This document shows, in pieces, positions 6,116 through 64,000 of a stretch of DNA of 64,000 bases; the stretch's first letter is position 1, and every line of letters starts with the position of its first letter. The translations under genes were made by a program, and so were the position numbers. The notes under the pieces are model-generated. The model saw nothing but the letters and a program-made list of their open reading frames with translations. It was not told the DNA's origin and made no database searches. Source of the DNA: Limnomonas spitsbergensis (lineage: Eukaryota; Chlorophyta; Chlorophyceae; Chlamydomonadales); NCBI GenBank assembly GCA_037349105.1, contig JAYJMM010000009.1, positions 806,001 through 870,000 of the forward strand. Reading direction: 5' to 3'.

Positions 6116-6179
6116 GGCTCCTGGGAGATGTTCCCTAGGATACCTCAGGTTGCTTAAGAGGAATGGAAGGGGAGGGCCA

Positions 6180-18539: not shown

Positions 18540-18655
18540 TCTGGCACTCTCCTGCAGCTTTTCTCAGTTCCTAGATGAGGCCTCGTTAGCTGGCGACAGC
18601 GACTCCAAGCGTAACGTATCTTGCACAAGCGACTCGAAATTTCGCCGCTCCGCAG
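18540..18655 (+). repeat. Partial duplicate of the acceptor and 5' half of a JmjC-gene exon
   Basis: CCTGCAG followed by a frame reading [17 protein letters not shown] is a close copy of the start of the exon at 18721 ([17 protein letters not shown]), about 175 bp upstream. After the shared part the sequence diverges and the frame runs into a stop. It could be a mutually exclusive alternative exon, but it lacks the rest of the exon and its donor, so a junction duplication is more likely. Confidence 0.7.
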
Positions 18656-18720
18656 CGTGCAGTGATTTTGTTTTGCATCGCACACACACCTGACAACTCC
18701 GTTCCTGGCACTCTCTGCAG

Positions 18721-21700
18721 CTTTTCTCAATTCCTAGACGAGGCATCGTTAATTGGTGACAGCGACTCCAAGTGTAACGTGTCTAGCGCAAGTGACTCGA
18801 AGGCCCCCAGCGGAGACCCGGGCCGCGGTGGTCAGCCAGGTCCAGCTGATGGAGACCTTGAACAAAGGGGTGGAGAACCTCGTGTTGAAAGAGACTCATG
18901 TGTAGGCAGCTTGCAGCGGGCCACTGGAGAAAAACGGGATGCTCTACCCAGGCCTCACCTCTACCTGGCACAGCATCCCCTCCAGGAAGGTGCGATGGGT
19001 GTCCACTGGCCATTGTTTCTTTTTTCGTGACTCAGCTGCATGTCAGCTACACTCCGGCCTCTGGCCGGCGACCCCATTTGTAGCCAGCCATGCTGCTGTG
19101 GCAACCAGTCGTAAGCTGGACCAAGTTTGGTTCCCAGTGGGCCCTCAGCGGCCACGGGGCCGCCTGCTGAAGGTGGACTCGTAGCCGAAAAAGTAAACCC
19201 TGTGGGTGCCTTGCTGCTTCATACAGTGCTGTCATGTTCCTTAGGGGTTAGGGGTAAGGGGTAAGGGGCTAGGGGTTAGGAGTTAGGGGCTAGGGGTTAG
19301 GGGTTAGGAGTTAGGGGTTAGGGGAAAGGAGTTAGGGGTTAGAGTTAGGGGTTAGGGGTTAGGGGTTAGGGGTTAGGGGTTTAGGGTAAGGGTTGCAGTG
19401 TCAGGAGAAAATGCCTTCATGTTCCAAAGTTCATATTGGTCAAACAGCATGTTCAGTGTTGGGCGATTTACGGCCAGAGACAATGCTGTCATGTTCCTGA
19501 GTTCATATGAATTGAACAACATGTTCAGTTTTGGGTGATTTATGACCGTGACGGCCTGCCCTCTGACAGTGCCACAAACATGTTACACGTTTCATCAGTG
19601 TTGGGCGATGTACGGCCATGACGGAGTGCCCACTGACAGTGCCACACATACCGTAAAACTGGTTTGACGCTGCCTTAAATTAATTATGTTTGGAGGTGCG
19701 CGGAGTGGTGTGCGACAGAATAATAATGTACAACTATTTTTGGGGGTGCGCGGAGTAGTGTTTCCGGCACCAAATATCAAACAAACCAGCTGCACGAGCG
19801 CGAACTAGGGTTTGTTTTGCCTGTGTGACGAACCTGATGTATAGTTCTCAACAGGGGTGCACGGACCCTATCCCGTTTTACGGTTTGTTACGTTTCTCCA
19901 GTCGCCATTTGATTGCTTGTAGGTATGGCCTTACTTGCAGCTGAAGCACCCGCACCCGACTGCCTCATTGGTCGGCAGCTGAGCAGCACTAACTTGTGGA
20001 TGTGTGCCAGGTGAGGGGGTGAGACGGGTGTTTGGGTGGGGGGGGGGGGGGGTGAGGGGGGGGGGGAGATGAGTGTGCCAGGTGAGGGGGTGAGATGGGT
20101 GTGTGTGTGGGGGGGGGGGGGGGGTGAGATGAGTGTGCCAGATAAGGGGGGTGGGGGTGAAGGGTGGGGGTGTGAGATGGGTGTGGGTGTGGGTGGGGTA
20201 AGATGGGTGTGTGGGGTGGGGTGGGGGGTGAGATGGGTGTGTGGGGTGGGGTGGGGGTGAGATGGGTGTGTGGGATGGGGTTTGGGGTGAGCTGGGTGGG
20301 GGGGGGTGGGGGTGGGGGGGGCTGGGTGGGTGGTGTGGGTGTGTAGGGGGGTGAGATGGGTGTGTGGGGGTAAAGATGTGTGTGGGGGGGGTGGGGGTGG
20401 GGGGGTGAGGTGGCTGTGCCAGGTGAGGGGGTGATATGGGTGTGGGGGGGGGGTGAGAGGTGGAGGTACAGAGAACTTACAAGTGTGATTGATGGGACCC
20501 TGTTGCCCTGCCCCCCTCCCTCAGTATCTTCCGGCCACCTTGCCGTACCCTGCTTCCCTTTCCCCCTCAGTGGCAGCAGATCAAGCCTGTGGCGCGACAC
20601 AAGCAACACCCTCGTTTGTGAAAGAAAGCAGGCTACGCCCCGTGTGGGGCGTGAGAGTTCAGGTATCAGCGCAGCCTGGGGCTCGTGTGTGTACGGCTGT
20701 CAACTTTGCCCTGTCCTTCCCCCTCAGTGGCAGCCGATCGAGTTTGCATTACGACCCCAACGACAACCTCCTGTGCCTGGTGTCTGGTTCCAAGCGAGTG
20801 AAGCTGTTTTCCCCGGGCCTCACGCCCAGCCTGTACCCGCGCCACATCACGGACGAGTCCTGCAACCACAGCCAGGTCAACTTTGCCAGCCCGGACTATG
20901 CTGTACATCCCCTGTACAGGTAAACAGTACACATGATGTATGTATGAGCGGTACACATCCTGTACATGCAAGCTGTACCCCCCTGTTCAGGTGAGCAGTA
21001 CACATGATGTATATATGAGCGGTACACATCATGTACATGCGAGCTGTACCCCCCCTGTGCAGGTGAGCAGTACACATGATGTATACGCAAGCAGTACACT
21101 TCATGCACATGTGAGCAGTACAATCCGCATAGACAAAAGAACTGTTCCCCTGGTAACTGCACCCAATGAATCATACTTAGAGACGCCCTGACTTATCCCT
21201 AAATCTGAACCCACTCAGGCATGTCCTTGTCCCTACGCCCACTCAGGCATGTCCTTGTCCCTACCCCCACTCAGACATGTCCTCAGGCATGTCCCTACAC
21301 CCTACATGTCCCTACCCCCACTCAGACATGTCCCTACCCCCTACTACATGTCCCTACCCCACTCGGACATGTCCTTGTCCCTTCCCCCACTCAGGCATGT
21401 CCTCAGGCATGTCCCTACACCCTACATGTCCCTACCCCCACTCAGACATGTCCCTACCCCCTACTACATGACCCTACCCCACTCGGACATGTCCTTGTCC
21501 CTTCCCCCACTCAGGCATGTCCCTACCCCACTCGGACATGTCCTTGTCCCTTCCCCCACTCAGGCATGTCCTTGTCCCTACCCCCACTCAGACATGTCCT
21601 CAGGCATGTCCCTACACCCTACATGTCCCTACCCCCACTCAGACATGTCCCTACCCCCTACTACATGTCCCTACCCCCACTCAGACATGTCCCTACCCCC

Positions 21701-24700
21701 TACTACATGACCCTACCCCACTCGGACATGTCCTTGTCCCTTCCCCCACTCAGACATGTCCCTCCCCCCTACATGTCCCTACCCCCTACATGTCCCTCCC
21801 CCCTACATGTCCCTACACCCTACATGTCCCTACCCCCACTCAGACATGTCCCTACCCCCTACTACATGTCCCTACCCCACTCGGACATGTCCTTGTCCCT
21901 TCCCCCACTCAGACATGTCCCTCCCCCCTACATGTCCCTACCCCCTACATGTCCCTACCCCCTACTACATGTCCCTACCCCCTACATGTCCCTACCTCCT
22001 ACATGTCCCTACCCCCTACATGTCCCTACCTCCTACATGTCCCTACCCCCTACATGTCCCTACCTCCTACATGTCCCTACCTCCTACATGTCCCTACCCC
22101 CTACATGTCCCTACCTCCTACATGTCCCTACCTCCTACATGTCCCTACCCCCTACATGTCCCTACCTCCTACATGTCCCTACCCCCTACATGTCCCTACC
22201 TCCTACATGTCCCTACCCCCTACATGTCCCTACCTCCTACATGTCCCTACCCCCTACATGTCCCTACCTCCTACATGTCCCTACCCCCTACATGTCCCTA
22301 CCTCCTACATGTCCCTCCCCCCTACATGTCCCTACCCCCTACATGTCCCTACCCCCTACATGTCCCTACCTCCTACATGTCCCTACCTCCTACATGTCCC
22401 TACCCCCTACATGTCCCTACCTCCTACATGTCCCTACCCCCTACATGTCCCTACCTCCTACATGTCCCTACCCCCTACATGTCCCTACCTCCTACATGTC
22501 CCTACCCCCTACATGTCCCTACCTCCTACATGTCCCTACCTCCTACATGTCCCTACCTCCTACATGTCCCTACCTCCTACATGTCCCTACCTCCTACATG
22601 TCCCTACCCCCTACATGTCCCTACCTCCTACATGTCCCTACCTCCTACATGTCCCTACCTCCTACATGTCCCTACCCCCTACATGTCCCTACCTCCTACA
22701 TGTCCCTACCCCCTACATGTCCCTACCCCTACATGTCCCTACCCCCTACTACATGTCCCTACCTCCTACATGTCCCTACCCCCTACATGTCCCTACCCCC
22801 TACATGTCCCTACCCCCTACATGTCCCTACCTCCTACATGTCCCTACCTCCTACATGTCCCTACCTCCTACATGTCCCTCCCTCCTACATGTCCCTACCT
22901 CCTACATGTCCCTACCCCCTACATGTCCCTACCTCCTACATGTCCCTACCTCCTACATGTCCCTACCTCCTACATGTCCCTACCTCCTACATGTCCCTAC
23001 CTCCTACATGTCCCTACCCCCTACATGTCCCTACCTCCTACATGTCCCTACCTCCTACATGTCCCTACCCCCTACATGTCCCTACCTCCTACATGTCCCT
23101 ACCCCCTACATGTCCCTACCTCCTACATGTCCCTACCTCCTACATGTCCCTCCCTCCTACATGTCCCTACCTCCTACATGTCCCTACCCCCTACATGTCC
23201 CTACCTCCTACATGTCCCTACCTCCTACATGTCCCTACCTCCTACATGTCCCTACCCCCTACATGTCCCTACCCCCTACATGTCCCTACCTCCTACATGT
23301 CCCTACCCCCTACATGTCCCTACCTCCTACATGTCCCTACCTCCTACATGTCCCTACCTCCTACATGTCCCTACCTCCTACATGTCCCTACCCCCTACAT
23401 GTCCCTACCTCCTACATGTCCCTACCTCCTACATGTCCCTACCTCCTACATGTCCCTCCCCCCTACATGTCCCTACCTCCTACATGTCCCTACCTCCTAC
23501 ATGTCCCTACCTCCTACATGTCCCTACCCCCTACATGTCCCTACCTCCTACATGTCCCTACCTCCTACATGTCCCTACCTCCTACATGTCCCTACCCCCT
23601 ACATGTCCCTACCTCCTACATGTCCCTACCTCCTACATGTCCCTACCCCCTACATGTCCCTACCTCCTACATGTCCCTACCTCCTACATGTCCCTACCCC
23701 CTACATGTCCCTACCTCCTACATGTCCCTACCTCCTACATGTCCCTACCCCCTACATGTCCCTACCCCCTACATGTCCCTACCTCCTACATGTCCCTACC
23801 TCCTACATGTCCCTACCTCCTACATGTCCCTACCCCCTACATGTCCCTACCTCCTACATGTCCCTACCTCCTACATGTCCCTACCCCCTACATGTCCCTA
23901 CCCCCTACATGTCCCTACCTCCTACATGTCCCTACCTCCTACATGTCCCTACCTCCTACATGTCCCTCCCTCCTACATGTCCCTACCTCCTACATGTCCC
24001 TACCTCCTACATGTCCCTACCCCCTACATGTCCCTACCTCCTACATGTCCCTACCCCCTACATGTCCCTACCCCTTACATGTCCCTACCTCCTACATGTC
24101 CCTACCCCCTACATGTCCCTACCCCCTACATGTCCCTACCTCCTACATGTCCCTACCCCCTACATGTCCCTACCTCCTACATGTCCCTACCTCCTACATG
24201 TCCCTACCTCCTACATGTCCCTACCCCCTACATGTCCCTACCTCCTACATGTCCCTACCCCCTACATGTCCCTACCCCCTACATGTCCCTACCTCCTACA
24301 TGTCCCTACCTCCTACATGTCCCTACCTCCTACATGTCCCTCCCCCCTACATGTCCCTACCTCCTACATGTCCCTACCCCCTACATGTCCCTACCCCCTA
24401 CATGTCCCTACCTCCTACATGTCCCTACCTCCTACATGTCCCTACCTCCTACATGTCCCTACCCCCTACATGTCCCTACCTCCTACATGTCCCTACCTCC
24501 TACATGTCCCTACCCCCTACATGTCCCTACCCCCTACATGTCCCTACCTCCTACATGTCCCTACCCCCTACATGTCCCTACCTCCTACATGTCCCTACCC
24601 CCTACATGTCCCTACCCCCTACATGTCCCTACCCCCTACATGTCCCTACCTCCTACATGTCCCTACCTCCTACATGTCCCTCCCCCCTACATGTCCCTAC

Positions 24701-27700
24701 CTCCTACATGTCCCTACCTCCTACATGTCCCTTCCCCCACTCAGACATGTCCTTGTCCCTTCCCCCACTCAGACATGTCCCTACCCCCTACATGTCCCTA
24801 CCTCCTACATGTCCCTACCCCCACTCAGGCATGTCCTTGTCCCTTCCCCCACTCAGGCATGCACTTCAGCACATGATGCAAGTTACTATGAAGGTGCGAC
24901 TTGATGCCCCATGTCGGCTCATTTCCTTTTCCTTACTTCTTCCCGCCCACTTCTCTTCTGTCTATGTGTTTCCGCCCTTGTATTCTCACCCATGTTCTCT
25001 CTGCCCCGTGTCCTCGCTGCCCCGTGTCCTCTCCGCCTTTGTCTTTGCCGCCTTTGTCTTTCCGCTTTTGTCTTCTCGCACATGTACCTTTGCCAACGTT
25101 TTTTCGCCGATTTACATTTCACCTAATTCGCATTCAAACCGTCTCCAACGTTGAATTGCTGTCAATGCTGTGCCGATAACGGTCCTAACGGTGGCTGAAT
25201 TATGTAGCTGAGTTTCAGTCACCACAATTAGAAGGCAAATTCAGCTACTTTTACCAGTAAGAGACCGTAATTTCTTGCACGATTTCTGAATCACGGCGCA
25301 ATTGCAGAGCACTGATTGCTGTACACTGTGGCACTGCCATCATAGCTTCCATTTTTCACTCCCCGGGGCAGTGAATATCCACTTGGGCACTTGTCATCTG
25401 TGCCTCGTCATGTCCACGCTTCACCATCTGTGCCTCGTCATTTCCACACTTGACCATCTGTGCCTCGTCATTTCCACACTTGACCATCTGTCTTTGAACA
25501 CGGTCGCCAGGCGGGAGATGCTCTGTTCATTCCCAGTGGCTGGTGGCATCAAGTGGATAGCTCAGGTGGGCCGGTGGGCTGGTGGGCCGGTGGGTCAGTG
25601 GGCCAGTGGGCCAGTGGGCTGGTGGGCTGGTGGGCCGGTGGGTGAGTGGGCCAGTGGGCTAGTGGGCTAGTGGGCCAGTGGGCTGGTAGCATCAAGTGGA
25701 TAGCTCAGGTGGGCCGGTGGGCTGGTGGGCCGGTGGGCTGGTGGGTCAGTGGGCCAGTGGGCCAGTGGGCCGGTGGGCTGGTGGGCCAGTGGGCTGGTGG
25801 CATCAAGTGGATAGCTCAGGTGGGCCGGTGGGCTGGTGGGCCAGTGGGCCAGTGGACTGGTGGGCTGGTGGCATCAAGTGGATAGCTCAGGTGGGCCAGT
25901 TAGTCGGTGGTCTGGTGGGCTGGTGGACCAGTGAGCTGGTGGGCTGGTGGGCCAATTAGCCGGTGGGCTGGTGGGCTATTGGGTTGGTGGACCGGTTAGC
26001 TGGTGGGCCGGGGGGCCGGTTAGCTGGTGGGCTGGTGGGCTGGTGGACCGGTTAGCCGGTGGGATGGTGGGCCAGTGGGCTGGTGGCATCAAGTGGATAG
26101 CTCAGGTGGGCCGGTGGGCTGGTGGGTCAGTGGACCAGTGGGCCAGTGGGCCGGTGGGCTGGTGGGCCAGTGGGCTGGTGGCATCAAGTGGATAGCTCAG
26201 GTGGGCCGGTGGGCTGGTGGGCCAGTGGGCCAGTGGACTGGTGGGCTGGTGGCATCAAGTGGATAGGTCAGGTGGGCCAGTTAGCCGGTGGTCTGGTGGG
26301 CTGGTGGACCAGTTAGCTGGTGGGCTGGTGGGCCAGTTAGCCGGTGGGTGGTGGGCTATTGGGTTGGTGGACCGGTTAGCTGGTGGGCTGGGGGGCTGAT
26401 GGACCGGTTAGCCGGTGGGCTGGTGGGCCGGTGGGCTGGTGGACCGGTTAGCCGGTGGGCTGGTGGACCGGTTAGCCGGTGGGCTGGTGGACCGGTTAGC
26501 CGGTGGGCTGGTGGACCGGTTAGCCGGTGGGCTGGTGGGCTGGTGGACCGGTTAGCCGGTGGGCTGGTGGGCCGGTGGGCTGATGGCATCAAGTGGATAG
26601 CTCAGGTGGGCCTTGGTACTCCGATTTGTACTGCTTTCCCCGTCATATATCGCCTATTTTCATGTCTACTGCATCTCCTGGTATTTACTGCATTCTGATA
26701 TAAACTGCCTCTCAGACATGTACCGCCTCTGTCAATATGTACCGCTTCGCCCCGTGTATTCTGAGGTATAATTTTTGTTGTCATGTGTTTTGGTGATCCC
26801 CATTCACTGCGCGCTGCTGCCTCTCCCTAGCAGTACATTCTCTCCCTATGTGTACCGCCTTTCCTGATGAGTTCTCCTTCTGCTGTGTACTGCCTCAGGT
26901 ACCACCATAGCCGTAAACTTCTGGTGGGACCCTTTGTCACTTGCCGCTGCCGCCTCTGGCTGCGGCTCTCACCCCCTGCCTGCTGCCGCCTCTGGCTGCG
27001 GCCCTCACCCCCTGCCCTATTCTGCCTCTGGTCGCGGCACTCCCCCCCTACCCGCTGCTGCCTCTGGTCGCGGCCGCACCGGCCACGGCTACGCACTCTT
27101 CCACCTGCGACAGTGCTTGGGTGAGGCTCTGGTGGAGATGATGGGGCAGATGGTTTTGGAGGTCTCACAGGGGCAGCAGCAGCAGCATTTGGGGCAGCAG
27201 CAGCAGCAGCAGCAGGGGCGGCAGCAGCAGGGGCAGCAGCAGCGGGGGCAGCAGCAGCAGGGGCAGCAACAGCAGCAGGGGCGGCAGCAGCAGCAGCAGG
27301 GGCGGCAGCAGCAGGGGCAGCAGCAGCGGGGGCAGCAGCAGGAGGGGCAGCAACAGCAGCAGGGGCGGCAGCAGCAGCAGCGGGGGCGGCCGTTGGAAGC
27401 CGAGCAAGAGGTCGCGGGAGGGCCCGCAGAGGGCCAGTTGGATTCACCTGCGGAAGAAGAAGGTTCCGGACACTCTGCGGGCCAGCAGGGTGCCCCCTCC
27501 CTAGAAGGTTCCGGAAGGTTGGAAGCAGAGAGGCAGGGTGCTCCCTCCCTGGAAGCTACCGGAAGGTTGGAAGAAGAGGAGCGGCGTCCCTCAGACTCAC
27601 GTAAGCGTGGTCGGGTAGAGAGCTGGGTCTCTGGAAAGCCAGGCTCTGAACCGGCTGGCGGCGTGGCAGCATCCTCTGTACTGCCTGGTAGCGTGACAGC

Positions 27701-30089
27701 ATATTTTGTACCGCCTGACAGCGTGGCAGCATCTTGTGTACTGCCTGGCGAGGTGGCAGCATCCTCTGTACTGCCTGGCGTTTCGGTCCCCTCTGGGCGG
27801 TACCGGCGGTCCGCTGCAGGACTGGTGGACACATTCATGGGGATCCTTGCGCACCGGCAACTGCCGCGGCATGGGCCAGGGCATGGCAAGCACTGCGGTG
27901 TTGATGAGATGGCCGTGCTTCTGGCGCCTCTATCCGGCGCTGAGCTGGCAGGTCTGTTGTACCGGGTGGCGAACGACTACCCGGGGGCCATCAGGCAGTT
28001 GTTTTTCGGTGTTTCTGCTGCCGGCGGCGGAAGTGCAGCCGGCAACAGGCCTTCCGCCGCCGTAACAGCAGCAGCTCCCGCGCCAGCTGTGGCGGCGGTG
28101 GCTGTGGCTGCGCCAGCTGCTGCTGCTGCGGCGGCGGTGGCTGTTGCTGCACCAGCTCCTGCTGCTGCGGCGGCTCCAGCTCCTGCTGCTGCTCCTGCTG
28201 TGACTGCGGTGACATTGGCGCCTGGGCCCGGTCAGCCCTCCTCATCTGAAATAGATTTATCATGCTGGGACTCAGGCGCTATGACCCCCATGGTAGCGTA
28301 CTTGATAACGAGTAAGCTGGAGGCGCTGGAGCAGCAGGAGCAGCAAGAGAACGAGCAGCAGGAGCAGCAAGAGAACGAGCAGCAGGAGCAGCAAGAGCAC
28401 GAGCAGGAAATGCAGCGGCAAAATCATAGTCATCAGCAGCAGCAGCACCAAGGAGTTGACGAGGCGGGCGTATCGGGAGGCTGCGAGGATGCCACTGTGG
28501 ATGCTCGAGGGCGCAATGTAGTGACAGCACCCAGCTTGGCGGAGCTTTACCCGGCATTGTATGGCGCAACAGGGGATGCTGATAAGGTGAGGGCAGTAGC
28601 CATGGTCCCATGCCTCGGCCGAAACGATCGGCTTCCTTAATCCAGGCACTTGTTTGCATACCGCGGTATACTGGTATCTATTTATTGATCTATTTATGAG
28701 GACTGAGGAAATTCGGGAGATATGATTGAGCGCCCGGTTTAGCTCTGAGCTTTGCCCGGCGTTGTATGGCGCAACAGGAGACGCTGATAAGGTGAGGACG
28801 ATAGCCATGTGAATGGTATCGGCGCGGATGCGGCTACGGCCCCAAGCTGTGTTGTTTCCTTAAATTCCACGCCCTAGTAGGGCGTAGCTTTCTTTCTTTC
28901 TTATGGGGCAACAGGGGACGGAGACAAGGTGAGGACGATAGCCATGTGCATGGTAACGGCGCGGATGTGGCTACGGCCCCAAGCTGCGCTTGTCTCCTTA
29001 ACCTCCACGCCCTAGTAGGGCGTAGCTTTCTTTCTTTCTTATGGTGCCGCAACAGGGGACGCTAACAAGGTGAGGACGATAGCCATATGCATGGTAACGG
29101 CGCGAATGTGGCTACGGCCCCAAGCTGCGTTGTCTCCTTAACCTCCACGCCCTAGTAGGGCGCAGCTTTCTCTTCTTTTTTTTGCGCACCAGGGGACGCT
29201 GACAAGGTGAGGACTGAGGAAACCTGGGAGGCAGGAGGCTTGAGCGCCCGGGTGGGGTAGGAGGCTAAGTGGGAGACTTGCTGAGGAAACCTCACGTTAG
29301 CGTACCTGGTGCTACGACCCAACGAGGGGCTTCATTAATCCTCATTAATCCTCATTAATCCTCATTAATCCTCATTAATCCATGCCTCAGGGTGTGTTCT
29401 TTATTTATATAGAGACGGTACGCCCTGAGGCGTGGATTATGGAAGCCACCCGTTCGGCCGCAACACTAGGTGGGCTAAAAAACTATTTATTTATTTATTT
29501 ATGGCGCCCATGCGACCGAGCATTTTTTAGCAGGGCCCAGAGGTGTAACGTTATTGGCATGTTGTCTGTGTTTGCTTGAACATGATGAGGCATGTGCCTC
29601 CACGCATGCATTCAACCAGTCAATGACATAACACCTCTGGGCCCTCCTCAAAAAGGCTCGGCCGTGTGGGCGCCCAACTGTCCGATTGGGAGAAATGAAA
29701 CGGAACTCGAGGTAAGAGGGAAATGCATGCAAGCATTCAACGAGTACTACCGGTAAGTTGTACCATTGCTGCGCTCCCCCAGAGGCCTTCATGGCCATCC
29801 CTAGGCCGATTCCTACCAAACCTGGACCTGCCTCCGAGCGGTGGCCCAAGCAGCAGGGCTGGCCGCACCAGGGGCTTGTGGCTGGGGGCCACAGTGTAGC
29901 TGAACTGTAGCTGATAGCGGCATACCACTAACTAAAAACATCACTGGGCAATTGCCTTCATGCAAGCATTCATAGAGTATTGAGTTGTACCATAACTGCG
30001 CTCCCCCACAGGCATTCGAGGTGTTGTTGCGTGGCAGGCAGAAGCTGGCAGAGGAAGCGATGCAAAGATTAATGGAGCGAGTGCTGTAA
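18721..30089 (+). CDS. JmjC/cupin_8 family Fe(II)/2-oxoglutarate-type oxygenase with Gln/Ala-rich C-terminal tail (5' incomplete)
   Basis: Exons: 18721-18989, 19941-20010, 20728-20919, 24857-24893, 25511-25565, 26899-28586, 30012-30089. All introns are GT-AG and phases match throughout; the exons give about 795 codons. In order: [22 protein letters not shown], typical of the JMJD5/JMJD7/TYW5-like group; [19 protein letters not shown] with the HxD iron ligands; [53 protein letters not shown] with the distal iron His; and [12 protein letters not shown] long tail follows: poly-Gln blocks, a 10-residue repeat ([10 protein letters not shown] type), a helical segment near [20 protein letters not shown], Ala-rich and Gln/Glu-rich coiled-coil stretches. 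The last exon reads [20 protein letters not shown] and ends in TAA at 30087. Family members hydroxylate proteins or tRNA, or demethylate histones; the substrate here is unknown. The first exon starts in phase 2, so upstream exons must exist. Confidence 0.82.
19020..19190 (+). repeat. Short interspersed repeat family B in a JmjC-gene intron
   Basis: Starts CAGCTGCATGTCAGCTACAC and continues with GGCAACCAGTCG, GGACCAAGTTTGGTTCCC and GCGGCCACGG, matching the order of motifs in 55780-55965. Confidence 0.6.
19235..19395 (+). repeat. TTAGGGG-type telomere-like interstitial array
   Basis: About 20 degenerate copies of GGGGTTA (TTAGGGG), with GGGTAAG and GGAGTTA variants. It resembles telomere-type repeats but lies inside an intron of the JmjC gene. 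Confidence 0.8.
19396..19940. other. Remainder of JmjC-gene intron
   Basis: Contains two to three decayed copies of a roughly 100-bp unit (AACATGTTCAGTGTTGGGCG at about 19446, again near 19510 and 19595) and an AT-rich dispersed element at 19645-19765 (ACCGTAAAACTGGTTTGACG, twice GGGGTGCGCGGAGT). Ends with the TTACTTGCAG acceptor of the exon at 19941. Confidence 0.55.
20011..20465 (+). repeat. G-rich minisatellite that includes copies of the upstream splice donor
   Basis: The exon ending at 20010 joins its donor as GTGTGCCAG|GTGAGGGGG. The same string with GTGAGATGGGTGTG recurs near 20078 and 20417, and GTGTGCCAGATAAGG near 20126. Runs of G and GTGTGTGGGG fill the rest. The array therefore appears to have grown from this intron's own 5' splice junction. 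Confidence 0.75.
20555..20727 (+). repeat. Broken duplicate exon start interrupted by repeat family A
   Basis: CCCCCTCAG|TGGCAGCAGATC (exon-like from about 20570) copies the acceptor and first bases of the true exon at 20728 (CCCCCTCAG|TGGCAGCCGATC). It would read [16 protein letters not shown] against [16 protein letters not shown], losing the HxD motif. From about 20618 it runs into a family A repeat (GAAAGAAAGCAGGCTACGCC). Confidence 0.7.
20920..21125 (+). repeat. About 72-bp tandem copies of exon end plus splice donor
   Basis: The exon ends CCCCTGTACAG|GTAAACAGTACACATGATG. Further units CCCCCTGTTCAGGTGAGCAG (about 20977) and CCCCTGTGCAGGTGAGCAG (about 21053) follow with the same downstream ACACATGATGTAT sequence, each keeping a plausible GT donor. 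Confidence 0.8.
21217..24850 (+). repeat. 17-bp / 28-bp satellite related to the intron's own acceptor
   Basis: Early part (21217-21950): 28-bp-like units CCCACTCAGGCATGTCC with TTGTCCCTACC. Main part: 17-bp units CCCTACCTCCTACATGT or CCCTACCCCCTACATGT, roughly 170 copies. The array returns to the first type at 24728-24850 and runs directly into the real acceptor, TTCCCCCACTCAG|GCATGCA, at 24856. The acceptor and the 28-bp units share TTCCCCCACTCAGGCATG. Frames of more than 1,100 codons open in all three forward frames because 17 bp times three repeats in phase; they are not genes. Confidence 0.95.
24894..25510. other. JmjC-gene intron, low complexity
   Basis: Pyrimidine-rich: decayed repeats of CCCCGTGTCCTC and CCGCCTTTGTCTTT (24950-25090), then three copies of a roughly 31-bp unit CACTTGACCATCTGTGCCTC (25395-25495). 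Ends in the acceptor CGGTCGCCAG. Not coding in the gene frame. Confidence 0.55.
25566..26612 (+). repeat. GGGCTGGT-type satellite carrying seven copies of an exon end with its donor
   Basis: The exon 25511-25565 ends GGTGGCATCAAGTGGATAGC followed by TCAG|GTGGGCCGG. The same exon-plus-donor block recurs near 25685, 25796, 25868, 26081, 26178, 26249 and 26580, separated by 8-bp GGGCTGGT/GGGCCGGT/GGGCCAGT units and GGACCGGTTAGCC variants. Most copies keep the GT and could in principle act as donors or cryptic exons. Confidence 0.92.
26613..26898. other. End of JmjC-gene intron
   Basis: Decayed spacer units ending in TGTACTGCCTC or TGTACCGCCTC, similar to the 30-bp unit repeated inside the following exon at 27660-27790. 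Ends with the acceptor ACTGCCTCAG at 26898. Confidence 0.5.
28587..29260 (+). repeat. Tandem copies of JmjC exon end plus donor, interleaved with repeat family A
   Basis: The true exon ends GCAACAGGGGATGCTGATAA then G|GTGAGG at 28586. Copies of this junction follow near 28768, 28906, 29047 and 29190 (for example GACGCTGATAAGGTGAGGAC). Each of the first three continues into a minus-oriented family A repeat (28800-28905, 28925-29040, 29065-29185) ending in TTTC repeats, giving a hybrid unit of about 140 bp. Confidence 0.85.
29503..29700. repeat. Inverted pair of retrotransposon 3' tails
   Basis: Left arm 29503-29560 (GGCGCCCATGCGACCGAGC, then GGGCCCAGAGGTGTAACG) and right arm about 29620-29690 (ATAACACCTCTGGGCCC, then GGCTCGGCCGTGTGGGCGCC) are reverse complements with a spacer near 60 bp. 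Both tails point inward. The arms match the 3' end of the retrotransposon family seen at 52265-52340. Confidence 0.8.
29735..30011 (-). repeat. Family B repeat flanked by a duplicated acceptor region
   Basis: A minus-oriented family B copy (29770-29915, ending TGTAGCTGAACTGTAGCTGA) sits between two copies of the JmjC-gene last-intron acceptor region: CATTGCTGCGCTCCCCCAGA at about 29763 and ATAACTGCGCTCCCCCACAG at about 29992. Only the second is followed by the true exon. Confidence 0.7.
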
Positions 30090-32969: not shown

Positions 32970-35900
32970 ATGGCTCAAGCTACCACCCAATACCGAGTGG
33001 ACCAAGATGGCGTCGCTGTCATCACGCTCTCTTACCCGCCTTTGAATGCGTTGCACCCCCAGCGTAAGTGCCCCGTGGCCTTGCGAAAAATTGTTGCGTC
33101 TGCCCTGGTCGATGACATGCAGTTAACGTCCCAAAGAATGAATGTATTTACTTTCCATGCATCTGTAGTTCTCGCTTCTCTGTTCGAGAACCTGGAGCGT
33201 GCGCATAGCGACCCGAAGGCAAAGGCCATCGTGCTGATTGGCGCAAAGAATAATTTCAGCCCAGGCTTCGATATCATGCAGTTCAAGAACCAGACCGGAG
33301 GCGGGGGTATCGACAACAAGGTCCGCACCGCTCGCCTCTTGGCCTTCTGGCCACGATGCCTGACCGCTTTGCAGCATGGCAATATATTTATACTCTGGCA
33401 ACGCCTCCCCCGATTTTTCAACCCAACTCCATTGCATACCCTCCGCATGCCATTACGCAGTGCATGGCAGCATGACAAGGTTCATGTCTTGTTTGACTGA
33501 AGTGCGCACCATGCCACCTTTTTGACGGCCGATCTGCTGGGCCAATAGGGGTTTGTCAGGCTTAGAGCCAGTAATCCGAGCAACTAGGCTTGTTGCACCA
33601 GGCCCCTCCTTCAGTGGTGTAGCTGAAATGTAGCTGCAAGCACCCTAACAAAAGCAGCTCCCCTGCCTGAGCCTGTTGATCCCACCTTGCCGCTATACAC
33701 CTCCCCATGCCCCCACCACTCGTCACACCTCTGCAGATCAATAACATAATCTGCTCCTCACGCCCTGTCGTCCCTCACCACCCGTACTGCTTCCCACCAC
33801 CCTGTCGAAGCTCAATGACGTTATCTAATCCTCACGTCCTCGACACTCTTTTTGTTTATCTCTGCCACCTCCTCGACACTCATTTTGTGCAATATCTGTC
33901 ATATTTTGTGTAATGTCTGCCACCTTTTGTGTAATCTCTACCACCTACTGTCTTAGCGTGTACCGACACCCCTGTTACAGATTAATGATGCAATCTGCTT
34001 GGTGCTGGATGGCGGCCCCAGGCCGCCTGTCGCCGCTATCAAGAATAGGATATGCTCCCGACCCCCCTCGCTCTCCTCACACCCCTGTCGCTGATCCATG
34101 ATGAGATCTGCTCGGTGCTGGAAGGTGGCCCCAAGCCGCCTGTTGCCGCCATCAAGAATAGGATCTGCTCCGGACCCCCCTCACACTCCTCACACACCTG
34201 TCGCAGATCAATGATGCAATCTGCTCGGTACTGGAAGGTGGTCCCAAGCCCACTGTCGCCGCCATCAATAATAGGATCTGCTCCCGACCCCCCTCACTCT
34301 CCTCACACCCCTGTCGCAGATTAATGATGCAATCTGCTCGGTGCTGGAAGGTGGTCCCAAGCCCACAGTCGCCGCCATCAACGGCGTGGCCCTCGGCGGC
34401 GGCCTGGAGGTGGCCATGGGCTGCAACGCGCGCGTGTGCACGCCCGGCGCGCGCATGGGCCTGCCGGAGCTCAGCCTCGGAATCATCCCGGGCTTCGGAG
34501 GCACGCAGCGCCTGCCGCGCCTCGTGGGCCTCAAGAAAGCCGTTGAAATCATGCTAACGTCACAGGTACAGAAAAATACGCCCCAGGGGCAGGGGCGAGA
34601 AGATGTGATTGAAACAGTGCGGCATAGGCCTAGGCCGCGTCTGTGCCGTTACCATTCACAGGTACAATACGGATCACGTGCATCCCGCTCCTCGCAACCC
34701 TTCTCGTTCACCCGCTGCTCTCTCAGTTTTTTCTCTCCCTGCTCCCTGCCCCCTCCTCCCCCTCCTGCTGAACCCCCTCCCTGCCCCCCATGAGCACACT
34801 CCCTAGCCTGTTCCCTGCCCACATGTTGATTCCGCTCTCTGCCCCCCCCTCTCCTTTAACAACACATCAAGCCTGGTCTGCTCCCTTCCCCCCACTTACA
34901 TTCCACAAGTCCGCTCCCTACCTCTCGTGCATCCCGCTCCTCGCACCTTCTCGTTCACCCGCTTCCCCCCTCTCATTTTTTTCTCTCCCTGCTTTCTGCC
35001 CCCTCCTCCCCCTCCCGCTGAATCCCCTCCCTGCCCTTATGAGCACACTCCCCAGCCTGTTCCCTGCCCACATGGTGATTCCACTCTCTGCCCCCCCCCC
35101 CTCTCCTTTAACGACACATCATGCCTGGTCTCCCTCCCTTCCCCCCACTTAAACTCTGCGAGTCCGCTCCCTGCCTCTCGAGCTTTTTTGCCTCCCCCCC
35201 CCCCCCTCTCCTTTAGCGGCACATCAAGCCTGGTCTCCCTCCCTTCCCCCCACTTACATTCCACAAGTCCGCTCCCTGCCTCTCGTGTTCATTCCGCTCC
35301 TCGCACCTTCTCGTTCACCCGCTTTCCCCCTCTCCTTTTTTTCTCTCCCTGCTCCCTGCCCCCTCCTCCCCCCTTCTGCTGAACCCCCTCCCTGCCCCCC
35401 ATGAGCACACTCCCCAGCCTGTTCCCTGCCCACATGTTGATTTCGCTCTCTGCCCCCCCCCTGCTTTAGCGGCACATCAAGCCTGGTCTGCTCCCTTCCC
35501 CCCACTTACACTTTGCTAGTCCGCTCCCTGCCTCTCGTGTTCATTCCGCTCCTCGCACTCTTGTTCACCCGCTTTCCCCCTCTCATTTTTTTCTCTCCCT
35601 GCTCCCTGCCCCCTCCTACCCCCTCCTGCTGAATCCCCTCCCTGCCCCCCATGAGCACACTCCCCAGCCTGTTCCCTGCCCACATGTTGATTCCGCTCTC
35701 TGCCCCCCCCCCCTGCTTTAGCGGCACATCAAGCCTGGTCTGCTCCCTTCCCCCACTTACACTTCGCTAGTCCGCTCCCTGCCTCTCGTGTTCACTCCGC
35801 TCTTTGCCCCCCCCCTGTTTTCACAAGTAATCAAGCCTAGTCTGCTTCTTGCCCCCCATATTCATTCTGCTAGTCTGCTCCCTGCCCTGCGTGTACATTC

Positions 35901-38900
35901 TGCGCCCCCCCCCCCCCCCTGCTTTCACAGCCCATCCAATACAACGAAGGTTGTAAGTTAAATCATTAACCCTATCACCTCCTGCTTTCGAAACCAATCA
36001 GGCACGACGAAGCTTTCAAGTTCAATCCTTAACCCTATCACCTCCTGCTTCACAGCTCATCATGCATGGCAAAGCTGTCAAGTTCAATCCTTAACCCTAA
36101 CACCTAAATCCTAAACCCTAACTCCCTAACACCCTAACATCCCCTGCTTTCGCAGCCCATCAAGCACGACGAAGCTCTCAAGCTGGGTCTGGTGGACGAG
36201 GTAGCTCCCAGCCTGGACCAACTTCTACCAGCTGCCAAGAGGCGCGCCTTGGATATGGCTGAGGGCAGGCAGCCACGCATCCTGTCACTCGTACGCACGG
36301 ACAGGTAGGGCCCAGCATGCGCGGCATATGTATGACCGGCGGAATCATGGCAGTGGCAGTGGCAGTGGCAGTGGCAGTGGCTTGTCACTCGTACGCACGG
36401 ACAGGTAGGGTCCAGCATGCGCGGCATATGTATGACCGGCGGAATCATGGCATCTATAGTGTTTGTGGTGTGGTTGTGCTTTTGTCATCTGGGTTCAAGC
36501 TGAGGGTGTCGCTTGGCAGTGGCCATCGTGCGCTGGGTATGGTCGAGGGCAGGCAGCCACGCATCCAGTCTGACTCGTACGCACAAACAGGTGGGGCCCA
36601 GCATGCGCGGCATGCGGCATGCGCTGAGATGCGCCACATGCGCCACGCACACGCGGTATACTTAAAGACCCGCGGAATCATGGAACCCTAAACCCAAGAG
36701 CCCTAAAACCATGCCCACCCTTCTTACCTCTGCCACTTCCTTCACAGCCTCCAGCCACTCACCCCCCCCCCCCCTTTCTCCCTGCCTCTGCCTCTTTCCT
36801 TACAGGCTTGAGCCCCTATCAGAGGCTCTGGCCATCTTCGACTTCGCCCGTGCCGAGGCCTCCAAACGCGCTCCCGGCCTGCAGCACCCGCAGCTGTGTA
36901 TCGATGCCATTCGACATGGAGTAGAGAATGGAGGTGCTGCGGGACTGGCCAAGGTGATGACGAGAGATGGCCCAACCTGTTCCTTTTGTGTGTGTTTGGG
37001 GATGCCTCTGGACTAGTGGAAGTGATGGGAAGAGATGACCTGACCTGGTCCTTTCGTGTGTGTTGGGGATACCTCAGGACTAGCCAAAGTGATAGACCTG
37101 CAGCACCCGCAGCTGTGCATGGATGCCATCCGCCATGAATTGTTGAGGAGGGTGGGTGTTTCCCTGCAGGATCATAGCCATTGGCCTATATAAAAATATT
37201 AGTGCCACTCGATTTCTGCACGCGATAAGCCGAGTGCTTTACCCGCCATCACGCAGCCATCAGCATAAAAAAAAACGTTTATCTGCTGCTGTCAGGAGGG
37301 CAAGTGCTTTGCATTAAAAGACGATCATGCCATTTACCTGCTGCTTTCAGGAGGGCGAGTGCTTTGCATTAAAAGACGATCATGCCATTTACCTGCTGCT
37401 TTCAGGAGGGCGAGTGCTTTGCCCGTGCCGCCAGCTTGGATACGCACAAGGCCCTGGTGCACATCTTTTTCGCACAGAGGTCCACGAAGAAGGTGGCCGG
37501 CATCACAGACGCAGGTGTGATGGTGTGACACTGGTGTGATAATGTGACGCAGGTGTGATGGTGTGACGCAGGTGTGATTGTGTGGTGCAGGGCTATTAGA
37601 ACCCTGGACCCTTAGCAAATGAGGGTAGCCGGCATCTTCTTCGTGCAGGGGTGCACCAAGAAGGTTGCGAGCATCACAGACGCATGTGTGATGGTGTGAC
37701 GCAGGGCTGTGGTATCATAACCCTGAACCCTCAAATAGGCTGCACTGCTGCTGTACTACAATCCTGGAACCTAGTTTAGGGTTAAGGGTTTAGACCCTAA
37801 ACCCTGGACCCTAAACCCTAAAAAGGAGGTGGCCGGCATAACAGACGCAGTCGTGACGCAGGTGTGACGCTAGGCTGAAGTATTGGAACCCTGAACTGAA
37901 ATGGGCTGCAGTTTGAGTAACCTTGGACCCTAAACCCAACAGGGCGACCGGGATTGCAGACGCGGGTGTGATGGTGTGACGCAGGGCTGTGGTATTAGAA
38001 CCCTGGACCCTAAGCAACAGAAGGTAGCCGTCATCACAGACACAGGTGTGATGGAGTGACGCAGGGCTATTAGAACCCTGAACCCTGAACAATTGAAGGT
38101 AGCCGACGTGTTTTTCGTGCAGGGGTCCACCAAGAAGGTGACCGGCATCACAGACATGGGTGTGATGCTAGGTCAACAAAGCCATACACACAAAGGAAAC
38201 CTCTGTGGCTATGGCCCCAAGCTGTGTTGTTTCCTTGGAACTCAAATGGGCTGCAGTATTAGAACCCTGGACCCTGAACCCAACAGAGTCACAGACACAT
38301 GTGTGACGCGGGGCCAACAGAGCCATACACGTAAAGGAAACCTCTGTGAGGAAGTAACTTATCGCTTGCTGCCTCATGGTAACTTCTCCGATGTGGCTAC
38401 CGCCCCAAGCTGCGTTGTTTCTTTGAACCCCACGCCCAAGTTCGGGCTAGGCTTTCGTTCGTTCGTATGACACAGGGCTTAAGTATTGGAACCCTGAACT
38501 TAATGGGGTGCAGTGTAAGAACCCTGTTCCATTATCCCAAGGAGGCATGTAGTATTACATACAAAAGAGCGAGGTGTGACATTGGGCTGCTGGATCAGAA
38601 CCCTGAACGTCTGGACCTTTATAACCCAATTGGGGTGCAGGTTAAGAATCCTGGATCCTGAACCCAAATGGGCTGCAAAGTTAGTTACTTAAGACCTTAA
38701 ACCTTCAAGCTTACAGCTTAAATATTAAAGCTTAAGCTGTCTTAGTGTATCCAAGTGCCTGTACCGCCTTACATGCACATGTCCCATGCATCAAATGCGA
38801 TGCTCTGCTGGACTGTAAAAACCTTCTCAAACCCATAAGGTAGCCGGAATCGCACACGCTGGTGTATTGGTGGATTAAAGCCCTGGACTTGCACCTTGAG

Positions 38901-46786: not shown

Positions 46787-47285
46787 GGCTGCATCCAAGC
46801 TGTAAGGCTGGAGCAGGCGACGTCTTAGCTGTAAGGCTGGAGCAGGGCTTGGCTGGCCAGGCTGCATCCAAGCTGTAAGGCTACACCACTCAATACGTGG
46901 GGGGATAGGAGGGGAGAGTGGCGCCACATCTGGGTGAAGCAGGCCAGGCTGCATACAAACTGTGGGGCTGGACCACTCCATGCGTGGTGGGAGGAGGAGG
47001 GGGGAGGTAGCGCCACATCTGGGTGAAGCGGGCCAGGCACCGTCTAAGCTTTGAGGCAGACACTCAATGTGTAGTGGGGGAGGCGGAGGGGGCAGGTAGC
47101 GCCATATCTGGGTGCAGCAGGCCAGTCGGTATACAAGGTGTGAAGCTGGACCACTCAATGTGTGGCCTGTGTGTGTGTGTGAGATTGGACCCTAGTGTGT
47201 CGAGGGGGGGAGGGGGGCGGTATCGTCAAATAGGGGTTCGACAGGTCAGGCTGCATTTAAGCTGTGAGGCTGGACCCCTGTGTGG
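46787..47285 (+). repeat. Tandem copies of the MFP2 stop-codon region, including the SKL signal
   Basis: The coding end GGCCAGGCTGCATCCAAGTT then GTAAGG (SKL and stop) is followed by copies at about 46787 (GCTGCATCCAAGCTGTAAGG), 46825 (GTCTTAGCTGTAAGG) and 46852-46882 (GGCCAGGCTGCATCCAAGCT then GTAAGG), then more decayed units near 46940, 47030, 47115 and 47240. Each good copy carries TGTAA, the green-algal poly(A) signal. Confidence 0.88.
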
Positions 47286-47695: not shown

Positions 47696-47776
47696 CTAGC
47701 CCTCTGCACAGGGGAGAGAAAGCAAGAGAGAGACAAAATGGGAAAGAGCCAGTCCATTAGGTTTTGACTGATCAGG

Positions 47777-51528: not shown

Positions 51529-51599
51529 GCTGTACTGGCTGTTCCTGCAACACCACTGGTGACATAGTCTCTAGTGGAACTCAGGTGTTGGACTTGGTC

Positions 51600-60600: not shown

Positions 60601-63596
60601 CCATGTACCCCTGTACCCCTGTACTTCTGTACTTCTGTACTTCTGTACCCCTGTACCCTGTACCCCTGTGCCCCTGTGCCCCTGGACCCCTGTACCCCTG
60701 TATCCCTGTTCCCCTGTGCCCCTGTACACCTGTACCCATGTACCCTGTACCCCTGTACCCTTCCCTACTTTTTGCTTTAAATAACGTTTCCCTCCACAGT
60801 TGCCATGTCCCATGCACCGGCCAATATGGGTGGCTTCCTTAATCCACACACTTGAATGTGTATGTATAACATTATGTATCAATATATGAATTGATTTACA
60901 GTATGTTTGATTTAATTGATCAATGTACAATCAATGTATGTTAACGTTTCCTGCCCGTCCTCAGGTGTGAACGGCGGCGGTAGCGGCACTCCTGGAACAA
61001 CGGTAGGTCTCTGTGGAAGACCTTGTTTTTATGAAAAATGCCCGGACGAATAACTGAGTTCGAAAAAATAAACACGTTTCAAGCTGTGAGTAGCTGTATT
61101 TGCTTTTCAATGCTGTGCTCCTGCTGATTGCTGTGTAGAAAGAAAGAAAGCTACGCCCCGTGGGGGGCATGAGAGTTAAAGAAACAGTGCAGCCTGGACC
61201 GAAGCCACATCCGCGTCGTTTCTGTCATTACTAAATGCCGTTCAACGCTGCTTAATGCTTAATTATTGCTTAATGCTTAATGCTTGTTAATTCTTTATAT
61301 GCTGGCCAACGCTCTTTAATACTGTGAAATGCTATTTCTGCTGTTAAATGTTATTTTGATTGATGGTGTTTTATTTAGTTCTGTTTAATGCTGTTATGAT
61401 TGATGGCTCCCTGAACGTCAACAGATGACACAAATCAGGGAAGGTTCAGGGTTTAGGGTCTAGAAACCCTACCCTACTAGGGAGGGTCTAGAAACCCTAA
61501 ACCCTGAACGTTAAGAGGATTACACAAATCAGGGAGTGGGGACAAGTCATCCGAGTCGGCTTTAGTAAAAAGTGACTTTTAAAAGGCGGAATCTTACAAC
61601 CAAATTAAATGTCGCCATAATAACAAGCTGCAGGGGACAGAGAGATACAAGAGGTCCTTCAAGCTTATCGGCGCGTTGTTTTTTATGGTTGTGGATGCTC
61701 ATGAGCGACGGACAGCCTGCCTACACATCGTCATCCGGATGGCCGTCGCCATGGTCATAATTGGGTGAGACATTTTCATGTGTTAGCAAATCGATCGGGT
61801 GGAATAAATATAACCGAGATTTGGATTTGCTGGCCTTTCATTTCTAATGGGAGGCCTGCCTTGTCATCCAGATGGCCGTCACCATGGTCATCATTGGGTG
61901 AGATAGGTCAGACTACTAAAAGGGTTATATATGAGGGTTATATATGAGGGTTTCATAAACAAAGCCGGTTTAGGTATAGGCTACTTTTTATTTCTAGAGC
62001 GGGCCTACCTCGTAGCCCGCTTTCATACCTGGATGGCCGTCGCCATGGTCAGAATTGGGTCTAGAACGGTGCTTAGCCGCTGGGCCCTGCTGAACGCTTG
62101 GCTGTGTGGGGCTGGTAGGGAATGACTAGGCCCAAATCCAGCTACCATGCACAGCCTATGACATGGTGCAGCCATGACAGCCTCTTTTGTGAGGGGGGCA
62201 GGAACCCGGCGTTGTAGGAGGAGGGAGAGAGAAGATTGTTTGGCGGATTCGATCCCTCAACCTCTGGGTATGGATGCATGAACTGGATGCATAAACTGGA
62301 TGCATAAACTGGATGCATGAATTCGATGCCTTAATTGAATGAGACATGTTGCGGTGGGAGTGCGTGTGGAGTTCATGCCACATACATTGCCTTGTCCCAT
62401 GCTTTGGCCAAACGTGCAGCTTCTTTATTCCACACACTCGTTTTTTCATACTTGCTTATTTAATTATAGCTCATGAGGGCAGCCTTGCCTGCGGCGAAGT
62501 CCTCATCGGGTTAACCGTCAAAATGGACACATGATGGGGTTCACAATTTGCTTCTTAAAAAATCTGGTAACAGTCACGAGTTCCGTACTCGTCCAGAAAG
62601 AAAGAAAGCTACGCCCTACTGGGGCGTGGAGGTCCATGAAACAACGCAGCTTGGGGCCGAAGCCACATCCGCGCCGTTACCATGAAGCAGCAAGCAAATT
62701 GCAAGTTATTCATGGTGGCTTGGAGTTTTTAGGGTTTAGGGTTAAGGGCTTGGGGTTTACTCTGGTGGTTCCTCTAGTGGTCTACACTTCTGGGTATGCT
62801 TTGTTGACCCAGTGGCAGGCTGTGTGGTGAACAATCGATTAACATCTCTAGGGCAGTTTGACGCGAAGATCTCATTGGGAGAGCCCTCAAAATGTTCATG
62901 AAAGGGTTCATAATAGGCTTCCTGAAAGAGCTGGTCATAGTCGAGTTATGAACTTCTCTAGGGCAGTTTGATGCAAAGACCTCATTGGGATAGCCTTCAA
63001 AATGTTCATGACAGGGTTCATAATAGGCTTCCTGTATGAGCTGGTCATAGTCGATTTATGAACTTCTCTAGGGCAGTTTGACGCAAAGACCTCATTGGGA
63101 TAGCCTTTAAAATGTTCATGACAGGGTTCATAATAGGCTTCCTGAAAGAGCTGGTCATAGTCGAGTTACGAACTTCTCTAGGGTAGTTTGATGCAAAGAC
63201 CTCATTGGGATAGCCTTTAAAATGTTCATGACAGGGTTCATAATAGGCTTCCTGAAAGAGCTGGTCATAGTCGAGTTACGAACTTCTCTAGGGCAGTTTG
63301 ACGCAAGGACCATTTGGGGTGTCCGTTAAGATGGTCATAATGGATGAGGGTACTTTTGTTGACGCAACACATTAGCGTTATCATAGTCAGCCAACCTCTC
63401 CGATGCTCATACCTTAGTCCTGAACCTCTTAAACCCCAAACCCTGAACCCTGATCCCAAGCCCATGAACTTAAAACCCATTCCATTCACCTCCACAGGGC
63501 CGTTCTGCTCGGGCTGTGCCTGGGTGGCGTGTATCCCACAAGTGTGGGCAACCAGAAGCTCATGGACATCTTAACGCTGACCTGGATCAAGTACAC
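54683..63596 (+). CDS. Pro/Gln-rich coiled-coil protein of unknown function (3' end beyond window)
   Basis: Exons: 54683-54816, 57219-57292, 57986-58107, 58292-58588, 58969-59224, 60965-61002, 63498-63596. All phases match, giving 340 codons so far. The first exon begins MSDRYFNLLEAEAAAKLSTD and ends MESELHHLQHN; its donor is GC (AACAG|GCACGT), all others GT. Then DTRAAIEGQMHTMQQYMQEQ (helical), NIEQLQLQPQQQQQYQ, a proline-rich exon (PRGLPPPPQPSPPQPSYDP) ending in a charged helix QLRERELDLEQADWTEHQYM, an exon holding an internal 35-residue repeat (FHHPGREAPLKEQWAQAYA / FHYPGREAPLKEQWAQAYA), then GVNGGGSGTPGTT. The last exon is followed by GTAAGT at 63597. A true 5' exon may lie upstream because ATG 54683 overlaps a possible acceptor (CATGTCAG). 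No domain recognised; scaffold or RNA-binding roles would be guesses. Confidence 0.65.
54817..55090. other. Start of intron 1 of the Pro/Gln-rich gene
   Basis: No gene; ATGCATGCATG-type alternation near 54970-54990. Confidence 0.45.
55091..55205 (-). repeat. Short interspersed repeat family A
   Basis: GGTAATGTCGCGGATGTGGC, TTCGGCCCAGGCTGCGCTGA, then CTCACGCGGCCC and AAGCGTAATTTTTTTC; minus orientation. Confidence 0.7.
55265..55570. repeat. About 60-bp tandem repeat ending in TGTAGCTGAA
   Basis: Five units with TACACCTGTGTAGCTGAAGT, GTAGCTGAACACCCCAATAC. The motif is the same as the end of repeat family B, so this may be a local expansion of a family B terminus. Confidence 0.8.
55780..55965 (+). 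repeat. Short interspersed repeat family B, best copy
   Basis: Four to five AGCTACAGTTC units, then ACACCGTGGCCCCGGCCTTG, GAGCCCCTGGTTCGGCCAGC, CCTGCTGCTTGGGCCAGGTC, and GGTTTGGTGGGC. Copies occur at 2050, 2935, 19020, 29770 and 33555. Confidence 0.75.
56090..57165 (+). repeat. 70-bp tandem satellite in intron 1 of the Pro/Gln-rich gene, about 15 copies
   Basis: Unit: CTCATGAACCCTGAACCCCA, GTCCTGCTGAACCCATAGAA, CTGCTGAACCGCTGACCCTC, TTAACCCCAT; exactly 70 bp over most of the array. Confidence 0.95.
57460..57790 (+). repeat. 117-bp tandem repeat, about 2.8 copies
   Basis: Units at about 57464, 57581 and 57698: GCGGCTGATGTGTCATGTAC, CAGTACCATCACCTCAGCCA, TTTTATACAGGGGCGCG. It lies in intron 2 of the Pro/Gln-rich gene. 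Confidence 0.9.
57895..57985 (+). repeat. Duplicated acceptor of exon 3 of the Pro/Gln-rich gene
   Basis: CCCCCTACTCGCAGCAACGT then ACCCTTACC at about 57893-57921 copies the true junction CTACTCGCAG|CAACGTACCC at 57985/57986. Only the second continues into the conserved frame. Confidence 0.85.
58589..58925 (+). repeat. Minisatellite similar to the donor of exon 4 of the Pro/Gln-rich gene
   Basis: The exon ends ACATGCAGAAG|GTGGGTTG. AGAAGGTGGG and GCAGAAGGTGGGTAGAAG recur throughout with GATGAAGGGGAGGTGG spacers, so each unit contains an exon-end-like AGAAG|GTGGGT. Confidence 0.85.
60235..60775. repeat. 9-bp minisatellite CCTGTACMC
   Basis: About 60 copies of CCTGTACCC/CCTGTACAC with TGTGCCC and TGTACTTCTG variants. 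Long frames on both strands (for example GVQVYRCT repeats) are by-products. Confidence 0.95.
61136..61215 (+). repeat. Short interspersed repeat family A
   Basis: AGAAAGAAAGAAAGCTACGC, GCATGAGAGTTAAAGAAAC, AGTGCAGCCTGG, GCCACATCCGCG. Confidence 0.75.
61216..61570. other. Intron of the Pro/Gln-rich gene
   Basis: TTAATGCTTAAT-type decayed repeats (61230-61400), then a duplicated block GGGTCTAGAAACCCTA (61455 and 61485). No exon in the gene's frame. Confidence 0.5.
61725..62060 (+). repeat. Three decayed copies of a roughly 140-bp unit
   Basis: GGATGGCCGTCGCCATGGTC followed by ATAATTGGGTGAGA at about 61738, 61868 and 62031. Confidence 0.75.
62596..62692 (+). repeat. Short interspersed repeat family A
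   Basis: AGAAAGAAAGAAAGCTACGC, CCTACTGGGGCGTGGAGGT, ACAACGCAGCTTGGGGCCGA, GCCACATCCGCGCCGTTACC. A full-length member. Confidence 0.8.
62845..63335 (+). repeat. 110-bp tandem repeat, about 4.4 copies
   Basis: Units start at about 62841, 62951, 63061, 63171 and 63281: AACTTCTCTAGGGCAGTTTG, CTCATTGGGATAGCC, TTCATGACAGGGTTCATAAT, GAGCTGGTCATAGTCGAG. It lies in the intron before the last visible exon. Confidence 0.93.
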
Positions 63597-64000
63597 GTAA
63601 GTACACGTTACACCGTAGTACAATATGTACTGCTTAGCTGAACCAGGAGCGGTACAGATGTACACACATGCATTGCATCAGTCATGCCCTCGCAGGTGAT
63701 GGGCCGAATCATGCTATGTGATCATAGTACAGCAAAAGCTGTACAATTTGCTCGCTTCCAGTGTATAGATCTTTTGCCGTACCTTTTCTTCTGCACTTAA
63801 AAGTAGCCGATCAATGATGCTATACGTATCTCTCTCCTGTACCCTTCTGCAAGACTCCATAAACCCTTAGCCTAAAGCCCATGTTATAAACCCTCTGAAC
63901 CCTGAACCTTCAACCTTCAACCCTGAACCCCAAACCCTGAAACAGAAACCTGAAACCTGAGCCCGAAAATCCCTTCCCGGCGATTCGTCACTGCCGGTAT
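63597..64000. other. Start of the next intron of the Pro/Gln-rich gene
   Basis: Short GTACACGTAAGTACACGTTA echo of the donor at the start, then unique text and CCCTGAACC-type runs (63890-63960). No further exon seen before the window ends. Confidence 0.5.

Follow-up and report, generated by a model that had tools for sequence, protein, structure and literature searches.

What makes introns carry copies of the exon edges that flank them, a process aimed at splice junctions or one that takes junctions along with everything else? This question is raised by a 64,000-nucleotide stretch of the genome of the green alga Limnomonas spitsbergensis (the window; positions 806001-870000 of contig C9, in an assembly of 260 Mb and 124 contigs), which contains a JmjC/cupin gene, an MFP2 gene and a proline/glutamine-rich (Pro/Gln-rich) gene. 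A sequence-only reading of the window had proposed that the introns of these three genes are built from tandem copies of their own splice junctions. We found that such copies exist and that the duplication behind them looks general, not aimed at splice sites, as exon edges are copied about as often as other stretches of the same introns. Very probably, the copies come from unselective short tandem duplication, which persists where the sequence is unconstrained and takes in exon edges proportionately.

We examined the edges on gene models for the three genes. MFP2 could be modelled completely (15 exons, 32970-46786 on the + strand, 728 aa with a C-terminal SKL), and its exon edges are well fixed by the alignment of residues 6-718 to Arabidopsis MFP2 (2WTB; E value 2e-248). 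A single open frame runs throughout both the JmjC/cupin gene (7 modelled exons, 18721-30089, +), whose product scores above the cut-off for Pfam Cupin_8 and JmjC, and the Pro/Gln-rich gene (4 modelled exons, 57219-59224, +), of which 90 aa tested against Pfam gave no match. For each junction, 30 exonic nucleotides were aligned to the entire adjoining intron, with dinucleotide shuffles as the null (200 per edge for MFP2). In MFP2, 16 of 28 edges, distributed over 12 of 14 introns, had a copy scoring above all 200 shuffles, and for each of these 16 the own intron outscored all 13 other MFP2 introns. The JmjC gene gave 4 of 12 edges above all shuffles, two of them weak, one with a score of 11 and one with a score of 13 that was judged against 20 shuffles only. 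The Pro/Gln-rich gene gave 1 of 6, with one more edge equalled by 1 of the 100 shuffles on which it was judged, and a putative exon read by eye at about 63498-63596 had no edge copy on either side. These results confirm that introns hold copies of their own edges. The statement that almost every long intron does so is borne out in MFP2 (11 of 12 introns of at least 400 bp) and goes too far for the JmjC gene (4 of 6). The near-identical copies at the exon 12 donor of MFP2 were recovered as well, and arrays start directly at a donor in the JmjC and Pro/Gln-rich genes (Table 1).

Next, we asked whether edges are copied more often than the remainder of the intron. Within MFP2, copied 30-mers made up 160/260 of the intron interior and 15/28 of the edges (P 0.42). 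The comparison was extended to 112 introns of the same genome from four gene families (30 chaperonin, 52 HSP70, 13 tRNA-synthetase and 17 kinesin introns), built on 70 of 72, 82 of 88, 25 of 30 and 35 of 139 listed domain hits, respectively. This gene set is no random draw, nine kinesin loci having been hand-picked for compactness and for pairs. Exon pairs were counted only with a GT donor, an AG acceptor, an open frame and near-continuous domain coordinates. Edges outside the window were set by domain matches and a small position-weight splice model built on MFP2, so that some may be a few bases off, and some machine-set edges at locus L009 look doubtful. Over the four families, 28/224 edges and 301/1980 interior stretches were copied (P 0.32). 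In none of them was the difference significant, with edges and interior at 13/60 and 125/500 for chaperonins (P 0.64), 2/104 and 49/880 for HSP70 (P 0.16), 5/26 and 83/260 for tRNA-synthetases (P 0.26), and 8/34 and 44/340 for kinesins (P 0.11). With the chaperonin introns paired more loosely, copies were counted for 16/90 edges and 81/400 interior stretches, and counts of single edges were 15/117 for chaperonins, 10/47 for synthetases and 11/56 for kinesins. Averaged intron by intron over the 99 introns of at least 200 bp, the edge rate was 0.141 and the interior rate 0.143 (difference -0.001, bootstrap 95% interval -0.052 to 0.049). Both rates climbed with intron length, from 0.035 (edge) and 0.053 (interior) at 200-400 bp through 0.176 and 0.178 at 400-800 bp to 0.295 and 0.305 at 800-4000 bp, and the 13 introns below 200 bp had no edge copy.

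A junction-aimed process, such as one involving R-loops, transcription or the spliceosome, might also copy exon edges into introns. It would account for edges turning up so much more often in their own introns than elsewhere: the 28/224 edges copied in the four families stand against 0.5 expected from length-matched introns of other loci, while no reverse-complement edge was copied (0/224). The sequence-only reading had named the lack of such an excess as a refuting outcome, and on this count it is not refuted. The kinesin counts lean the same way. Overall, there is no excess of edges over the interior, and a coding border without splicing, the MFP2 stop codon, is copied as well, which makes a junction-aimed origin very unlikely and does not support the stronger claim that the introns are built from splice junctions in particular. 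Copying also extends into the exons. Examined by exon depth, it fell in MFP2 from 15/28 through 9/28, 7/28 and 4/28 to 1/26, and to 0 from 75 nt onward; in the four families, 15-nt steps gave 28, 17, 9, 5 and 3 of 224. The fade thus spans about 60 nt.

Donor and acceptor edges are copied alike, as the sequence-only reading had held. Among 270 junctions of 135 introns, 53 had at least one spanning copy, in which exonic and intronic parts are contiguous (161 copies in total), and these comprised 25 donor and 28 acceptor junctions. Because unspliced intron stands beside exon sequence in these copies, their source is DNA, not spliced RNA. The copies keep the donor core in 69/80 and the acceptor core in 35/46 cases, about as often as neighbouring positions are kept, a count weighted by a single chaperonin intron (at locus L014) with 25 copies of its donor edge in an array. 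Purging or retention of GT/AG was considered, and no clear departure from the neighbouring positions was seen. The genome also offers many natural candidate decoy splice sites beside true ones, and RNA data could show how the spliceosome chooses between them.

The layout of the repeats is consistent with local tandem duplication. Of the 21,954 intron bases in the three window genes, 15,160 (69%) fall within direct repeats, and the 23 introns examined there contain 186 direct pairs against 3 inverted high-scoring segment pairs, bearing out the proposed direct tandem arrangement. The median distance of a junction copy from its real junction is 117 bp (10-90% range 76-171 bp, spacings below about 50 bp being invisible to the method). 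Over 326 kb of the genome, the next occurrence of a repeat followed within 200 bp in 294 of 427 events, and shuffles gave none. Slippage would predict short homology at the borders of units; the matched length exceeded the lag by at least 3 nt in 58 of 92 young pairs, a count inflated by nested arrays and low-complexity runs. The copies range from near-identical to decayed, as had been noted, with repeat-pair identities in the window genes between 72 and 95% (5-95% range; quartiles 78, 85 and 90%). This spread fits a long-running process, one that may still be running. Some arrays are 98% identical and the assembly alone was examined, as would suit an artefact in which the assembler expanded repeated stretches. 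Such an artefact is extremely unlikely, given that most repeat pairs are diverged and that many contigs and four gene families show the same pattern.

Cumulatively, these observations suggest how the copies may arise. Short stretches of local DNA would often duplicate in tandem, and some of these units would duplicate again to form arrays and satellites. The duplications would arise at the DNA level, probably by slippage during replication or repair. Selection would presumably remove those within exons, and those in sequence free to change would persist, so that introns grow. A duplication straddling a junction would leave one working junction, presumably the original one, which would be the one spliced; the spare exon edge would become intron together with its GT or AG, or, at a stop border, flank. 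Exon-edge copies are then best explained as a by-product, proportional to the general duplication rate, and the proposal that introns grow by duplication finds support. In the genes sampled, much of the intron length is the product of short tandem duplication. Since a coding border is easy to recognise, its copies serve as built-in tags from which unit size, direction and relative age can be read with no need of an outgroup.

Several observations weigh against unselective duplication as stated. The kinesin introns lean toward an excess of copied edges. In a mid-exon control on MFP2 (12 exons, 23 tests), exon 5 scored above all shuffles and exon 10 was equalled by 1 of 200. Copying at a border without splicing rests on one case, since the MFP2 start border and the JmjC stop border, tested likewise, gave no copy. 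The all-pair spacing of repeats in the window introns has a median of 334 bp, larger than the unit size from nearest copies, as would be expected if arrays contribute multiples of the unit. The load of interior copies is uneven, at 160/260 in MFP2 introns and 49/880 in HSP70 introns. Outside the three genes, the window gave 37/306, a rate much lower than in MFP2 introns and close to that of the other introns taken together. Persistence wherever sequence is free to change is therefore too simple a description. Intron length accounts for part of the variation in load, in which MFP2 stands out as rich. Among the 20 matches listed, no second close copy of MFP2 was present in the genome.

Many of the genes sampled occur as diverged pairs on different contigs (for example C39/C99, C36/C119, C84/C114 and C4/C123), as after whole-genome duplication or hybridisation; in the pair L044/L045, both members lie on one contig. 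In three chaperonin pairs on different contigs, the best-matching blocks reach 88-92% identity within diverged introns. Among 75 matched junctions of 11 pairs, an edge was copied in both partners at 3, in one only at 4 and in neither at 68, too few for dating. Copies in one partner only imply that at least some were gained or lost after the pairs split. The same junctions bear on the Rogers model, in which exonic AG|GT segments duplicate in tandem and so give rise to introns, the copies being relics of that event. AG|GT-bearing tandem units do exist here. Being common to related gene pairs, however, the introns at these 75 junctions are older than most copies, and in all 135 introns the start fails to resemble the start of the downstream exon and the end fails to resemble the end of the upstream exon (local scores at most 11 and 9). 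No intron (0/135) had at least 18 of 24 matches at either end, so that the signature of AG|GT intron gain, which the sequence-only reading had cited as an established idea, is missing and this origin is scarcely credible for the copies. In one pair of loci, L011 (about 6310-6440) and L012 (about 7360-7490), copies compared by eye have the same breakpoint on their 3' side and, close to the acceptor, two bases specific to the copies, and each nevertheless bears exonic bases of its own gene. This single case hints at duplication before the split followed by later conversion, with independent duplication also possible. We regard as rather doubtful the broader idea that exon edges and intron copies co-evolve, whereby unequal exchange or conversion involving a real junction and the copies close to it would repeatedly rewrite exon ends and reseed junction-derived satellites.

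The features of the window that bear edge copies are collected in Table 1.

Table 1. Copies of exon edges and associated arrays in the window (positions within the 64,000-nucleotide stretch)
Feature	Position	Strand	Details
Acceptor-edge copy of first modelled JmjC exon	18545..18690 (limits by eye)	+	exon start 18721; score 24, null maximum 12
JmjC intron 3: 17-bp satellite, copies of the donor and of the acceptor edge	20920..24856	+	direct repeats cover 98%
JmjC intron 5: array from donor with exon-edge copies	25566..26610	+	exon end 25565; 8-bp-based array 25565-26580; nine spanning copies
JmjC intron 6: 137-bp units bearing donor edge	28752..29214	+	exon end 28586
Copies of MFP2 exon 3 acceptor edge	33701..34319	+	upstream of real acceptor (exon start 34320); five spanning copies, identity 0.74-0.94; 113-bp array
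Decayed copies of MFP2 exon 6 donor edge	37646..38860	+	exon end 37514; six spanning copies, identity 0.80-0.88
Copies of MFP2 exon 9 acceptor edge	41447..41700	+	exon start 41701; two spanning copies, identity 0.91 and 0.97; 107-bp array
Copies of MFP2 exon 9 donor edge	42019..42310	+	exon end 41947; three spanning copies, identity 0.72-0.89; 111-bp repeat
Copies of MFP2 exon 11 donor edge	43082..43560	+	exon end 43010; five spanning copies, identity 0.76-0.94; 97-bp array
Copies of MFP2 exon 12 acceptor edge	43922..44370	+	exon start 44371; four spanning copies, identity 0.78-0.88
Near-identical copies of MFP2 exon 12 donor edge	44522..44707	+	adjoin exon end 44521; 44-bp and 58-bp units at 98%; edge test
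Copies of last MFP2 codons and stop in 3' flank	46767..46870	+	stop end 46786; score 24, null maximum 14 and 15; 19-bp repeat; border without splicing
Pro/Gln-rich gene: 11-bp array starting at donor	58584-58918	+	repeat scan and edge test
Pro/Gln-rich gene: acceptor-edge copy inside 105-bp repeat	58924-59137	+	repeat scan and edge test

Other features were seen in the window. A 62-bp satellite at 6174-16886 comprises about 173 copies at 96%, with a strong excess of G on the + strand (GC skew about 0.5). An 85-bp tandem array at 4150-5369 (14.4 copies at 97%) contains decayed 33-35-bp sub-repeats, that is, nested duplication. An open frame of 362 codons at 47768-48853 has the look of a retroelement fragment, judged by eye only. 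A dispersed element that resembles a SINE when read by eye, and carries the words CTACGCCC and GGTAACGGCGCGGATGTGGCTACGGCCCCAAGCTGCG, lies at 28769-29214 and was noted by eye also near 20640, 55100, 61140 and 62600. A scan of the window against Rfam gave nothing at the gathering score.

How do these introns compare with known systems? Introner elements are a recurrent source of intron sequence, as duplication is here, and place common sequence in introns of different genes. As candidates, they were set aside: 15 of 135 introns had any cross-gene match, none over half of the intron, and the matches (60-190 bp) may be copies of a SINE-like dispersed element. In minisatellite and other short tandem-duplication mutation, local direct duplications seed arrays. 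The introns studied here resemble this system in their local direct duplications and arrays, and the absence of a junction preference in our tests fits it. They differ in load, which in the three window genes is high enough for frequent capture of exon edges. The gain of introns by tandem duplication of AG|GT segments likewise involves tandem copies of AG|GT-bearing sequence, and, as described in PMC4974935, it is defined by the end-to-end resemblance that these introns lack. The same paper describes a potato RdRp gene in which tandem duplication across an intron-exon boundary made a new intron. As in our introns, a genomic tandem duplication there spans a splice boundary and sets a second edge with its splice signal beside the first. 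By contrast, the potato case is one event that made a new intron, whereas here many events, at both edges, have lengthened existing introns, with no new intron shown. A search of the literature, with many subscription papers outside its reach, turned up no account of introns so full of copies of their own edges. Tandem duplication across a splice boundary is thus already known, and the saturation of introns with its products is the unusual part.

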